A stretch of 44,428 nucleotides of DNA, from contig JACDCV010000003.1 in the NCBI GenBank assembly GCA_013817375.1, forward strand, positions 1-44,428, read 5' to 3'. Within the stretch, counting starts at the first letter, position 1. Each line of letters starts with the position of its first letter. Below the pieces are notes generated by a model. The model did no database searches, was not told the origin of the DNA, and saw only the letters and a list, made by a program, of their open reading frames with translations. Origin of the DNA: Sphingomonas sp. Its GTDB lineage: Bacteria; Pseudomonadota; Alphaproteobacteria; Sphingomonadales; Sphingomonadaceae. The translations under genes were made by a program, and so were the position numbers. This document shows, one piece after another, positions 15,435 through 20,248 of the stretch.

Positions 15435-16112
15435 TTATTCGAGGTCGCGGCTTAGCTCGTCGACCTGGCCCATGATCGTCTGGAGCGCCGATTTGTCGGG
15501 ATCGCTCTTGTGCTGCCGCCGCGACGGCAGCTTGCCGTTCGTCAGCAAGGTTTCCAGCGCGACCCGGCCGCGGGCGACCCGGCTCTTGATCGTTCCGACC
15601 GCGCAGCCGCAGATTTCCGCCGCCTCCTCATAGGCAAACCCGCCCGCGCCGACGAGGATCAGAGCCTCGCGCTGAGGTTGAGGCAAATGCATCAGTGCCC
15701 GCTGCATATCGGCCAGCTCCACATGCCGGTCCTGGCTTGCGGGAGCGGCGAGGATTTTGGACGCTGTCAGCTCGTCCCATTCGCCCTTGAAACGGGCGCG
15801 GCGCATCTGGCTGAGGAACAGGTTGCGAAGGATGATGAAGGTCCAGGCACGCATGTTCGTGCCTGCCTGGAAGCGCTTGCGGGCGGCCCAGGCTTTGAGA
15901 AGCGTTTCCTGAACGAGATCATCGGCGAGATCCCGGCTTCCCGACAGCGACCGGCCGAAGGCGCGCAGGTGCGGGATCACCGCCGCCAGCTGATCCTTGA
16001 AATCCGGATCGGATAGCGGAACCGGCTCTTCCCGAACTTCGGGTGCCTCTTCGTCATCGTCTACCGCGGCCATCGTCCCCCACTCGCTATACTCGCGGCG
16101 CTTTGCCACCAA
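15435..16112 (-). CDS. ecfG: ECF sigma factor, EcfG type
   Basis: Region 2 SRDLADDLVQETLLKAWAARKRF, region 4 LPQPQREALILVGAGGFAYEEAAEICGCAVGTIKSRVARGR; adjacent to phyR/nepR. Start may be internal ATG at 16073. Confidence 0.88.
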   Translation of the reverse strand: MVAKRREYSEWGTMAAVDDDEEAPEVREEPVPLSDPDFKDQLAAVIPHLRAFGRSLSGSRDLADDLVQETLLKAWAARKRFQAGTNMRAWTFIILRNLFLSQMRRARFKGEWDELTASKILAAPASQDRHVELADMQRALMHLPQPQREALILVGAGGFAYEEAAEICGCAVGTIKSRVARGRVALETLLTNGKLPSRRQHKSDPDKSALQTIMGQVDELSRDLE

Positions 16113-16160: not shown

Positions 16161-16319
16161 CTACGCCTCGGCCCCGATAAAGAAGATGATCGCGAAGATT
16201 ATCACGACCAAGCCCGTTCCGAAAATCAGCACATAGCGCGCCATGTGCCCAGTCGCCCCGGCACGCGCCTCCGTTGTCGTTTCGTGGATCGCTCCATCGC
16301 TATCTCGTCGTTCGGTCAT
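16161..16319 (-). CDS. 52-aa putative single-pass membrane protein, not in ORF track
   Basis: MTERRDSDGAIHETTTEARAGATGHMARYVLIFGTGLVVIIFAIIFFIGAEA*; ~19-residue hydrophobic C-terminal segment; lies directly behind an EcfG-type promoter. Confidence 0.65.
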   Translation of the reverse strand: MTERRDSDGAIHETTTEARAGATGHMARYVLIFGTGLVVIIFAIIFFIGAEA

Positions 16320-16353
16320 TCTGCTCTCGTTACGAATCAGGGTTCCATCGGCA

Positions 16354-16379
16354 AACGCGCCTGCCGGAACCCTTGTTCC
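16354..16379 (-). promoter_or_regulatory. EcfG-type promoter (GGAAC-N17-CGTT)
   Basis: Minus strand: GGAAC AAGGGTTCCGGCAGGCG CGTT; 34 nt upstream of the 52-aa ORF, which precedes ecfG. Confidence 0.8.
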
Positions 16380-16380
16380 G

Positions 16381-16425
16381 ATGAGCAGGTCCGGACTGCT
16401 GGGGGCAGTCCGGCATACTGCTCAT
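16381..16425 (-). other. Long interrupted hairpin between phyR stop and the EcfG promoter
   Basis: Minus strand ATGAGCAG-TATG-CCGGACTGC-CCCCA-GCAGTCCGG-AC-CTGCTCAT: 8 bp + 9 bp stems; no U-tract. Confidence 0.7.
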
Positions 16426-17222
16426 CAAGCCGGGACCGTCGCCGCGTCGAAAAACAAGGCTTGAGCGATCGCTGCCTTAACAGTTGAGCGCTGGAATGGC
16501 TTGGTGATCAGGAACGTCGGCTCCGGCCGGGTTCCGGTCAGTAGCCGCTCGGGGAACGCCGTGATGAAGATCACCGGCACCGAGAATTCCGCGAGAATAT
16601 CGCGAACCGCATCGATTCCGCTCGAATCGTCGGCGAGCTGGATGTCGGCGAGCACCAGCCCCGGCGGGCTTTGGCGAGCCATCGACACCGCTTCGTCGCG
16701 AGTGACGGCAACGCCGGTGACAGTGTGCCCGAGGTCGCGAACGATCGTCTCGATGTCCATCGCGATGATCGGCTCGTCCTCGATGATCAGAACATCGGTC
16801 AGGGTCTGGCGCTCGATCTCGCCAAGCGCTTCGGCGACCAGCGAATCCACATCGTCCGGGCTCGCCCCGATCAGATAGCCGGCGTCGTCGGAGGAAAAGC
16901 CTTCGAGCGAGGTCAGGAGAAGCGCCTGGCGCGACAAAGGCGTGATCTTCGAAAGGCGGGCGTTGGCGATCCCTTCGGCGCCTGAAATCTCCTGAGACGG
17001 CTCTTCGCCTTCCTCGATATTGGCGGTCGACCAAATCGCGTGGAACGTTTTATAGAGCCCCAGCCGCGGATCGACGTCGCGGGGAAACTCGTCGGGCTGG
17101 GCGACGATGGCTTCCAAAGTCGCACGCACGAAAGCATCGCCATGGGTCTGACTGCCGGTCAGAGCGCGCGCGTAGCGGCGCAGGAAGGGCAGATGGGGCG
17201 CAAGTTCCTGTCCAAGGGACAT
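16425..17222 (-). CDS. phyR: General stress response anti-anti-sigma response regulator PhyR
   Basis: N-terminal sigma-like domain (ELAPHLPFLRRYARALTGSQTHGDAFVRATLEAI) fused to C-terminal receiver (DVLIIEDEPIIAMDIETIVRDLGHTVTGVA... VLADIQLADDSSG... LITKPF). Confidence 0.96.
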   Translation of the reverse strand: MSLGQELAPHLPFLRRYARALTGSQTHGDAFVRATLEAIVAQPDEFPRDVDPRLGLYKTFHAIWSTANIEEGEEPSQEISGAEGIANARLSKITPLSRQALLLTSLEGFSSDDAGYLIGASPDDVDSLVAEALGEIERQTLTDVLIIEDEPIIAMDIETIVRDLGHTVTGVAVTRDEAVSMARQSPPGLVLADIQLADDSSGIDAVRDILAEFSVPVIFITAFPERLLTGTRPEPTFLITKPFQRSTVKAAIAQALFFDAATVPA

Positions 17223-17373: not shown

Positions 17374-17541
17374 TCCGCCCCTGTGGTGGGGTCCCCGCAT
17401 CGTCGTTGACGAGACGGGAGCGCCAAAGTTAGGGCAGGAACTGGCGCTCTTCCAACGGGCATTCGCGAACCGTTGCGCCTCATTTCCATGGCTCGCTGGC
17501 AAGGCGGCGCACGCACCCGCTCAATGGGGGGGGACGAAAGG

Positions 17542-17730
17542 TTGAGTGACAGGAAAGTGGCCGGTTCAAAGGGTCCAGAAGGAAAAGGTGATACAACTGC
17601 GCCTGCTGCCACCCTCAAAAAGAAGCAGAAGGCTGCCGACATCGGCCGGGCATTGCGCTCCGTCTATGACGAGACCCTTCGTGAAGAGGTTCCCGACGAT
17701 TTCTCCGACTTGCTCGGCAAGCTCAGCTAG
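17542..17730 (+). CDS. nepR: Anti-sigma factor NepR
   Basis: ...ADIGRALRSVYDETLREEVPDDFSDLLGKLS; divergent from phyR. Likely TTG start (L/MSDRKVAGS) preceded by a G8 tract; alternative in-frame ATG at 17524. Confidence 0.88.
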   Translation: MSDRKVAGSKGPEGKGDTTAPAATLKKKQKAADIGRALRSVYDETLREEVPDDFSDLLGKLS

Positions 17731-17757: not shown

Positions 17758-19287
17758 ATGTCGACCGCCGCCGAACGCTTCGCCAGGCTCTCCACGCCGG
17801 CCAAGCTGCTCCTGATCCTGACCGCAGCCCTGCTTCCCATCGGGTTCGCACTGGTTTTCGTCGCATATGGCGAAATCGAGGAGGCCAACGAGGCCCTGAA
17901 GTCTCAATCCGACGAGCGGGCGCGGATCGCCGCCAAAGCCGTCGAAAGCCTCCTCGCACGTAACGCGCTGGCGCTCCGGATCGCGACCAACGGTCGCCTG
18001 GACCTTCCCGACCCTTGCGCGCGGGTTCAGCGGTCGCTCGGCATAGCTCCGGCCGTCGCCCAGAACTTCGAGCTCAACGCCCCCGACGGGCGAGAATTGT
18101 GCAGCGTCGGCGACATCGGCGACCTCAGCATGCTTCCGCCAATTGCCCCTGGAGACATCCAGCTTCGGGTCGCTCCGCAGGAGGACCTGCTGCTCGTGCG
18201 TGTCGGGGTCGTCGGCGGGATGGCAGCCACGGTCATCTCCAGCGATGAAATCCGCGCAGCTGCGCTCGGTGAGAATATCGAGGGGCTGGTCGTTCGCGAC
18301 GGCAGGCGCGAGATCGTGATCGGCGATCGCGACTCGGCAATGACGCCGGGCGAAAGGGCGTCGATTACAAATTGGCCCGTCGCCAACGGGCGGCTGACGG
18401 TCGATGTCGAGGGCCGCGTTCCGGCCGTCACCACCCTCGACAGGCTCGTCATCCTGCTCCCGGTGGTGATGTGGTTTATCGCCGCGCTGATGACCTGGCT
18501 CCTGGTCACCAGGCTTCTGATCCAGCCGCTACGCCGCCTTCAGCAGGCAGTCTCCAGCTACGAACCCGGCGATCCCGCCCTCGAGCTTCCGAACAAGCTT
18601 GGGCCCGCGACCGAAATCCAGGGGCTCCGCGATGCCTTCGCCCGAGCGATGACGAGGGTTCAGGACTCCGAACGCGATATGAGCACGGCACTCGACGGAC
18701 AGCGCCGGCTCGTCCGCGAAGTCCATCACCGGGTGAAGAACAATCTCCAGGTGATCGCCTCGCTTCTCAACATCCACGGGCGAAGCGCCGAGACCGCGGC
18801 GGCCAGAGATGCCTATTCGTCGATCGGCCGGCGGGTGGGTGCGCTCGCGATCGTCCACCGCAATCATTATGCGGAGATGGAGGAAAACCGCGGCATATCG
18901 CTTCGGCCTCTGCTTGCGGAACTTGCCGCCGAACTTCGCTCCGGTGCGCCCGATTCGGCGCGCGGGCTGAGGATCGATCTCGATATTGAATCGGTGCACA
19001 CGACCCAGGACGTGGCAGTGTCCGTCGCCTTCCTGCTCACCGAAGTTATCGAATATGCGATGCTCCACCGCCCCGACGAGCCGGTCGAGATCGCAGTCAG
19101 GCGAGTGAGCGAGCTGACCGGCCGACTCACACTCGCAAGCCCGATCCTGATCCCCGACGAAGATCAGGAACGGGAGAAGGTGCAATTCGAGCGGATTATC
19201 TCGGGACTCGCAAAGCAGCTGCGATCGAGCCTCGACCGAAAGCTTGGCCGCTACAGTGTCGATCTGCCCGTGTTTCCGCCGCGCTGA
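17758..19287 (+). CDS. PhyP-like membrane sensor histidine kinase/phosphatase (HWE/HisKA_2 type)
   Basis: N-terminal TM, extracytoplasmic domain, HAMP-like segment, phosphoacceptor LVREVHHRVKNNLQVIASLLNIHGR; C-terminal ATPase domain lacks recognisable N/G boxes. Confidence 0.85.
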   Translation: MSTAAERFARLSTPAKLLLILTAALLPIGFALVFVAYGEIEEANEALKSQSDERARIAAKAVESLLARNALALRIATNGRLDLPDPCARVQRSLGIAPAVAQNFELNAPDGRELCSVGDIGDLSMLPPIAPGDIQLRVAPQEDLLLVRVGVVGGMAATVISSDEIRAAALGENIEGLVVRDGRREIVIGDRDSAMTPGERASITNWPVANGRLTVDVEGRVPAVTTLDRLVILLPVVMWFIAALMTWLLVTRLLIQPLRRLQQAVSSYEPGDPALELPNKLGPATEIQGLRDAFARAMTRVQDSERDMSTALDGQRRLVREVHHRVKNNLQVIASLLNIHGRSAETAAARDAYSSIGRRVGALAIVHRNHYAEMEENRGISLRPLLAELAAELRSGAPDSARGLRIDLDIESVHTTQDVAVSVAFLLTEVIEYAMLHRPDEPVEIAVRRVSELTGRLTLASPILIPDEDQEREKVQFERIISGLAKQLRSSLDRKLGRYSVDLPVFPPR

Positions 19288-19328
19288 GATGATCGTTTCG
19301 GCGGCGGCGAAAAAAAAGCAGGGATTCT

Positions 19329-19354
19329 GGAACCGGCGTAAAAGAAGGGGCGTT
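19329..19354 (+). promoter_or_regulatory. EcfG-type promoter (GGAAC-N17-CGTT)
   Basis: GGAAC CGGCGTAAAAGAAGGGG CGTT, 42 nt downstream of the histidine kinase stop, with no gene starting downstream on this strand. Confidence 0.85.
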
Positions 19355-19360
19355 ATGATG

Positions 19361-19464
19361 TTCGGATAGTGACTTTTGCCCCCCCGCTCTCGCTATCCGA
19401 TTAAATGGGCCCGGAACCGCCAACCCTCCCCCCCCCGGTGGCGCTTCCGGGCCCTCACTTTTTT
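19361..19464 (+). ncRNA. Putative EcfG-dependent small RNA with C-rich loops
   Basis: Perfect EcfG promoter; hairpin 1 (11 bp UCGGAUAGUGA/UCGCUAUCCGA, loop with C7); hairpin 2 (10 bp GGGCCCGGAA/TTCCGGGCCC plus 5 bp upper stem, loop CCCUC9) ending in TTTTTT. Confidence 0.72.
19407..19464 (+). terminator. Rho-independent terminator of the putative sRNA
   Basis: GGGCCCGGAA...TTCCGGGCCC then TCACTTTTTT. Confidence 0.85.
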
Positions 19465-19484
19465 CAACTCCCCCCTCACCAGCT

Positions 19485-20248
19485 TCATCTGAAACGGCCG
19501 CCGAAGCGCGCCTCGACGCGCGCCAGTGAGTCACCCGGATCGCGACGATCGCAAGCTCGTAGAGCGCCGCCAGCGGGATCGCGAGCATGAGCTGGGAAAT
19601 GGCGTCGGGCGGGGTAAGCACCGCCGAAATCGCGAATGCAGCGACGATCGCATAGCGGCGGCCCTTCACCAGCTGCTCGCGAGTAACGACGCCCGCTCGC
19701 TCCAGGATCATCAGCATTATCGGCAGCAGGAAGGCGACTCCAAAGCCGAACAGGAACCGCGTGCAGAAGCTCAGATAATTGCCGATCCCCGGAAGCGCGT
19801 CCTTCTGAACTCCGCCGACTTCGCCCTGGAAGCTCAGCAGGAAGTGAATCGCCCAGGGCATGGCGACGTAATAAGCGAAGGCCGCTCCGCCGGTGAAGAA
19901 CACGGGCGTCAAAAGCAGGAAGGGCAGAAGCGCCTTCTTCTCCTTCGCGTAGAGCCCGGGTGCTACGAACTTCCACAGCTGGATCGCGAAAAAAGGAAAG
20001 CCGAGCATCAGCGCGGTGAACAACGCGACCTTCACATCGACGAAGAAGGCCTCGAAGATGTCGGTAAATATCACCCTGCCCTGCCCGGCCGCGAGCAGCG
20101 GCTGCACCAGGAAGCCGAAAATGGCTTGAGCGAAATACAAACTCACGAAGAACAGCACCGCAAGCACGACGACCGACCACAAAAGTCGGCGCCTGAGCTC
20201 GATCAGATGCTCCATCATTGGCGCCTTGGTGTCGTCGATATCGTTCAC
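19485..20248 (-). CDS. tatC: Sec-independent translocase TatC; 3' end uncertain
   Basis: MEHLIELRRRLLWSVVVLAVLFFVSLYFAQ, VAFLLPIMLMILERAGVVTREQL, LTPPDAISQLMLAIPLAALYE. The ORF-track frame runs on to 19196 through the sRNA and antisense to the kinase; another frame stops at 19485. Confidence 0.85.

Follow-up and report, generated by a model that had tools for sequence, protein, structure and literature searches.

A conserved two-hairpin RNA with an EcfG-type promoter and C-rich loops in the GSR locus of sphingomonads

Results

An unannotated RNA gene downstream of the GSR kinase

We identified an unannotated small RNA gene in the window (the whole stretch of 44,428 nucleotides analysed here), located between the GSR histidine kinase gene and tatC. 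That this sRNA is a conserved structured RNA we regard as practically certain, and we are highly confident that it is an independent, EcfG-dependent sRNA, with both its transcription and its EcfG dependence being inferred. The explanation that accounts best for the whole of the data, and which we consider probable, is that of a trans-acting sRNA of the GSR regulon that pairs with G-rich ribosome-binding sites, nepR being the likeliest local target. The finding adds a well-supported, previously unannotated family of EcfG-linked RNAs, spread over about 40 genera within the sphingomonad family, Sphingomonas included, the genus of one model GSR organism. It combines a stress-sigma promoter with a two-C-loop architecture like that of 6C RNA, and its covariance model is ready for use.

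The window belongs to a fragmented assembly (2.2 Mb in 253 contigs). Pfam identified the genes neighbouring the sRNA as ecfG, phyR, nepR, a HisKA_2/HWE kinase and tatC. The features of the locus are as follows.

15435..16073, minus strand: ecfG sigma factor (Pfam)
16354..16379, minus strand: EcfG-type promoter, with a 52-aa ORF and ecfG downstream
16425..17222, minus strand: phyR (Pfam)
17526..17533, plus strand: G8 run in the region where nepR translation starts; the C-loops may pair here (inferred)
17542..17730, plus strand: nepR, anti-sigma factor (Pfam NepR)
17758..19287, plus strand: HisKA_2/HWE histidine kinase of the GSR locus (Pfam)
19329..19354, plus strand: EcfG-type promoter (-35 GGAAC at 19329-19333, N17, -10 CGTT at 19351-19354)
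19361..19464, plus strand: sRNA gene, predicted transcript of about 104 nt (fold, conservation in the genus, covariance)
19362..19400, plus strand: hairpin 1, 11 bp, loop CUUUUGCCCCCCCGCUC, C7 at 19379-19385
19407..19454, plus strand: hairpin 2, up to 15 bp, loop with C9 at 19428-19436
19459..19464, plus strand: T6 tail, terminator-like in the window species only
19488..20248, minus strand: tatC, convergent with the sRNA, frame open to 19196 (Pfam)

Both ends of the transcript are inferred, the 5' end being placed 6 nt past the -10 element. The start of nepR is probably a TTG, as inferred from the conserved sequence GGGGGACGAGAGG-TTGAG, and that of ecfG is probably the ATG at 16073, preceded by GTGGGGGACG. 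On the minus strand, positions 16161-16379 hold an EcfG-type promoter followed by the 52-aa ORF, which has a probable membrane helix and lies upstream of ecfG; this ORF is possibly an autoregulated leader gene of the sigma factor.

The promoter is conserved at a fixed distance from the RNA

The initial annotation had proposed a perfect GGAAC-N17-CGTT promoter on the plus strand, and the sequence bears this out. Since 0.63 such GGAAC...CGTT motifs are expected by chance per window and 2 were found, the motif alone is not significant, and the significance of the promoter comes from its conservation. The form GGAAC-N16/17-CGTT is perfect in all 59 aligned copies from the same genus, and GGAAC-N16/17-NGTT is kept in 45 of the 48 copies from other genera. 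The distance from the -10 element to the first position of the RNA is 6 nt in 59/59 same-genus copies and in 41/45 copies from other genera, while within the genus the promoter spacer varies and the RNA does not. One criterion for belonging to the EcfG regulon, a conserved transcript whose promoter is kept at constant spacing, is thus fulfilled.

Compensatory changes support both hairpins

The sRNA was found in 59 of the 61 same-genus genomes, the window included; the two genomes without a strong match are 77% and 79% complete. The strong matches start at the predicted 5' end, except for one that is cut by a contig end. The genus alignment comprised 59 copies from 58 genomes, as one genome (G003) carries two copies on two contigs, which may reflect duplication or contamination. 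Every aligned copy adjoins the kinase gene, and also tatC wherever the contig permits the check. Mean pairwise identity within the genus is 91% for the RNA versus 68% for the kinase DNA beside it.

Two hairpins with C-rich loops had been predicted to follow the -10 element, and both are present at the positions listed above. Hairpin 1 has an 11-bp stem and the loop CTTTTGCCCCCCCGCTC, and hairpin 2 consists of 10 bp, a mismatch and a further 4-5 bp below a poly-C loop. The minimum free energy of the 107-nt stretch is -49.7 kcal/mol, compared with a mean of -27.5 for dinucleotide shuffles (z = -7.6). Within the genus, two-sided compensatory changes occur in 9 of the 25 base pairs, with 41 cells versus 8.9 in shuffles. 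Across genera they occur in 22/25 pairs (165 cells versus 38 shuffled), and in the widest set every one of the 25 pairs covaries (217 two-sided cells versus 49 shuffled); in this last set, structures slid along the alignment score far lower than the real one. The later alignments were fitted to a model and lean towards the structure, but the first was a plain sequence alignment of the genus, and it already shows the compensatory effect. The proposal of an EcfG-dependent sRNA would have been refuted had related genomes not conserved the promoter and the two hairpins; the comparison was run and found them conserved, decisively. Short of expression data, this proposal is strongly supported by the joint conservation of promoter and hairpins.

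The only C-runs of at least 7 in the 44 kb window are those in the two sRNA loops, whose bases are predicted to be unpaired. The loops are nearly invariant among the genus copies, and in loop 1 conservation extends past the C-run (UUUUG...GCUC). The C-runs themselves differ in length by single bases, from 6 to 9 in loop 1 and from 7 to 11 in loop 2.

The 3' end is less certain. The annotation had placed an intrinsic terminator here, and the T6 is indeed present in the window, but the T-run is species-specific: just 20 of the 59 genus copies have T4 or longer past hairpin 2. A simple terminator scan did not flag a terminator at the sRNA site. Thus, the structure of hairpin 2 is conserved and intrinsic termination is not a conserved property; because the poly-T is not conserved, the 3' end of the sRNA remains uncertain. 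In many genus copies (for example L005, L012 and L024), TGTCTGG or a similar sequence replaces the T-run. Its function is unknown; it could be another type of terminator, a processing site or an element belonging to the tatC side.

The RNA is confined to one family

Our model R1 detected the sRNA in contigs from named Sphingomonas (Ag1, IC-11, YR710 and S. soli) and across many of the family's genera. Broader covariance models matched 131 of 301 family genomes and 46 of 89 genera at E up to 0.01, and 127/301 genomes and 41/89 genera at E up to 0.001. These counts include some doubtful weak members: among 20 weaker family matches that we inspected, the promoter was present in 15 and absent in 5. 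We did not count as members the promoterless L324, L326, L327, L329 and L330, nor the ahpC-linked L133, L134 and L153. With models R2 and R3, no credible match was found outside the family among 387 class genomes; the class-level matches in G715, G506, G791, G612, G519, G551 and G524 lack an EcfG promoter and were rejected.

The PhyR proteins of carrier genera are mostly 68-85% identical to that of the window, and those of most non-carriers about 57%. The presence of the sRNA therefore largely follows one clade, with exceptions.

No Rfam 15 family reached its gathering score in the window. A literature search, incomplete in its coverage, found no earlier report of the sRNA.

Resemblance to GsrN and to 6C RNA

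The initial annotation had ascribed to the sRNA a logic like that of GsrN. In Caulobacter, GsrN is a sigma-T-dependent sRNA of about 100 nt with a C-rich 5' loop, and its targets are G-rich, the katG leader included (PMC5869019). The present sRNA shares with GsrN the length of about 100 nt, the promoter for a general-stress ECF sigma factor, a conserved and exposed C-rich loop, and a location usually near ecfG/nepR/phyR (it adjoins the GSR kinase in the genus, a linkage lost in some genera). It thereby satisfies three of the criteria for GsrN, namely a sigma-T/EcfG promoter (here on sequence evidence only), proximity to GSR genes and an exposed C-rich loop on the 5' side. The likeness therefore holds for promoter, locus, loop and length, but homology to GsrN has not been demonstrated. 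GsrN has one 5' C-rich loop and a terminator hairpin, whereas the present sRNA has two C-rich loops, is linked to tatC, is limited to one sphingomonad family and has no detected sequence relation to GsrN. By BLASTN, gsrN itself was found only in Caulobacteraceae, and Erythrobacter litoralis has no apparent gsrN-like gene (PMC5869019).

In its two-loop architecture the sRNA is nearer to the actinobacterial 6C RNA (Rfam RF01066; B11 in mycobacteria), which likewise has two hairpins with at least 6 loop C each. All 75 positions of the RF01066 model align to the sRNA, but with 16.1 bits the match stays below the gathering score of 47. 6C RNA belongs to Actinobacteria and has no EcfG promoter there, and the resemblance looks convergent. 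B11 represses a target with a G6 tract in its 5' UTR through either loop (PMC10470900). Membership of the present sRNA in the GsrN or the 6C family has not been shown. The alphaproteobacterial ar14 and cuckoo/CcsR RNAs also carry C-rich hairpin loops that are stress-linked or resemble an anti-Shine-Dalgarno sequence. The ar14 model scored 12.8 bits, below its gathering score of 58.8. RpoH promoters drive transcription of the CcsR RNAs together with a DUF1127 gene (PMC10253847), whereas the present sRNA has an EcfG-type promoter and no adjacent DUF1127 gene.

nepR is the best predicted local target

Our model suggests that PhyR would free EcfG from NepR, and that RNA polymerase carrying EcfG would then transcribe the sRNA of about 100 nt. 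The RNA would fold into two hairpins exposing single-stranded poly-C, CCUUUUGCCCCCCCGCUC in the 5' loop and ACCCUCCCCCCCCC in the 3' loop, and these loops would pair with G-rich ribosome-binding sites, altering translation of the target mRNAs. That the sRNA acts through pairing of its C-loops with G-rich mRNA sites is a prediction only, one that we find fairly likely.

The sole G-run of at least 7 in the window lies at 17526-17533, just 5' of the probable TTG start of nepR. Among the window's 37 start regions, the loops pair most strongly with that of nepR (-28.1 kcal/mol), and that of ecfG ranks fifth. Averaged over 40 related genomes, the loop duplex energy comes to -19.2 with nepR and with ecfG alike, and lies between -10 and -12 with the starts of phyR, the kinase gene, tatA, tatB and tatC. 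A common start motif of nepR in the genus is GAGGGGGACGAGAGG-TTGAG; in the window, the G8 run is predicted to lie in the loop of a hairpin whose stem contains the start codon. With a different choice of start, the nepR leader averaged -21.5 within the genus; the mean was -20.1 for other carriers and -14.8 for 11 non-carriers. This comparison was run through ecfG, and the contrast between carriers and non-carriers may go back to just one split between clades, with few independent changes.

The specificity tests did not support a dedicated interaction. Across 21 genomes, co-evolution between the loops and the nepR leaders was not significant, each genome's own pairs being no better than permuted ones (1022/5000 and 1558/5000 permutations as good). 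The 5' heptamer of the loop beat only 84% of its permutations against nepR, 17/105 being as good or better, and with random heptamers the figure was 18/400; over permutations, the non-C part of the loop has only a moderate advantage. When three genomes were searched for the pattern GCGGGGGG ahead of ATG, the matches were mostly intragenic and no target was shared. A G-run is absent from some nepR leaders, starts rich in G are not rare, and such start sites may have a simpler cause. Because the specificity tests are unsupportive and this simpler cause is conceivable, we keep nepR as a candidate only; that it is a real target is a prediction we hold to be less likely than not. By prediction alone, ecfG is a second, weaker candidate.

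If the sRNA did block the start of nepR, less anti-sigma factor would be made and the response would be prolonged. We therefore offer only as a speculation, slightly more doubtful than nepR being a target at all, that the sRNA made by EcfG blocks the nepR start and tunes ecfG in a feedback that prolongs or sharpens the GSR. No earlier report of RNA control of nepR was found in the literature search, whose coverage was incomplete, and the family opens to experiment the question of whether the GSR acts back on its own anti-sigma factor by means of RNA.

The failure of the best predicted target to show co-evolution would also suit an EcfG-driven RNA that binds a protein without pairing to mRNA, for example as a decoy for a C-rich-RNA-binding or cold-shock-type protein, and two exposed C-rich motifs on conserved hairpins do resemble a titration RNA. 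However, GsrN and 6C/B11, the C-loop sRNAs whose mechanism has been published, act by pairing with G-rich mRNA (PMC5869019, PMC10470900), and loop 1 is conserved beyond the C-run. We consider protein binding alone improbable, and retain the trans-acting sRNA that pairs with mRNA as our preferred explanation.

The sRNA persists apart from the stress genes, mostly beside tatC

In three genomes (G186, G250 and G283) the sRNA and phyR are on separate contigs, and about 24 kb lie between them in G396; the promoter is kept in all four. That the sRNA is retained even when the stress genes are elsewhere shows it to be an independent unit. Some genomes carry second, diverged copies: L331 (G920), L332 (G924), L152 (G320) and G943:C2:475146. 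The three that were inspected (L331, L332 and L152) each have their own GGAAC...GTT promoter, and L331 and L332 carry a similar loop 1 on different stems.

Adjacency to tatC is retained more often than adjacency to GSR genes, for an unknown reason. It is seen in distant genera (L314-L316, L321-L323, L325 and L333), even with the stress genes elsewhere. In the window genome no stop interrupts the tatC frame before 19196, and it therefore passes through the sRNA on the opposite strand; this open frame (19196-20248, minus strand) would encode a C-terminal extension antisense to the sRNA.

An alternative to a trans-acting sRNA is an RNA that acts in cis, antisense to the 3' end of tatC, or a terminator placed between the convergent kinase and tatC genes. 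Nearly all copies are convergent with tatC, several of them with the GSR genes moved away, and the tatC frame enters the sRNA in 40 of the 58 genus copies, with varying end points; however, it does so in none of the 38 copies from other genera, and the copies away from tatC (L317-L320, L331 and L332) retain the promoter. A terminator would need neither an EcfG promoter nor invariant loops, and the poly-T is not conserved. We judge either of these roles very unlikely, and again favour the trans-acting sRNA. Short ORFs do occur in the region, but the chance that the RNA is a small-protein mRNA or a fragment of the kinase 3' UTR is negligible, given single-base changes in C-run length that break any frame, an RNA-like pattern of compensatory pairs, a conserved promoter of its own and its separation from the kinase gene in several genera.

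A separate hairpin with a C-rich loop

L134 and L153 near 2001 (genus g50), and likewise L133 (g59), contain a strong hairpin whose loop is rich in C, GGCCCGGAAAGCCT-CTCCCCCTCCCCCT-GGCTTTCCGGGCC. It has no EcfG promoter and lies directly past a stop codon, the upstream peptide ending in ...SLDLVGKI. This ending resembles that of AhpC, and the start 3' of the hairpin may resemble that of AhpF. Possibly the hairpin derives from a 3' UTR or serves as an attenuator in a peroxide-defence operon.
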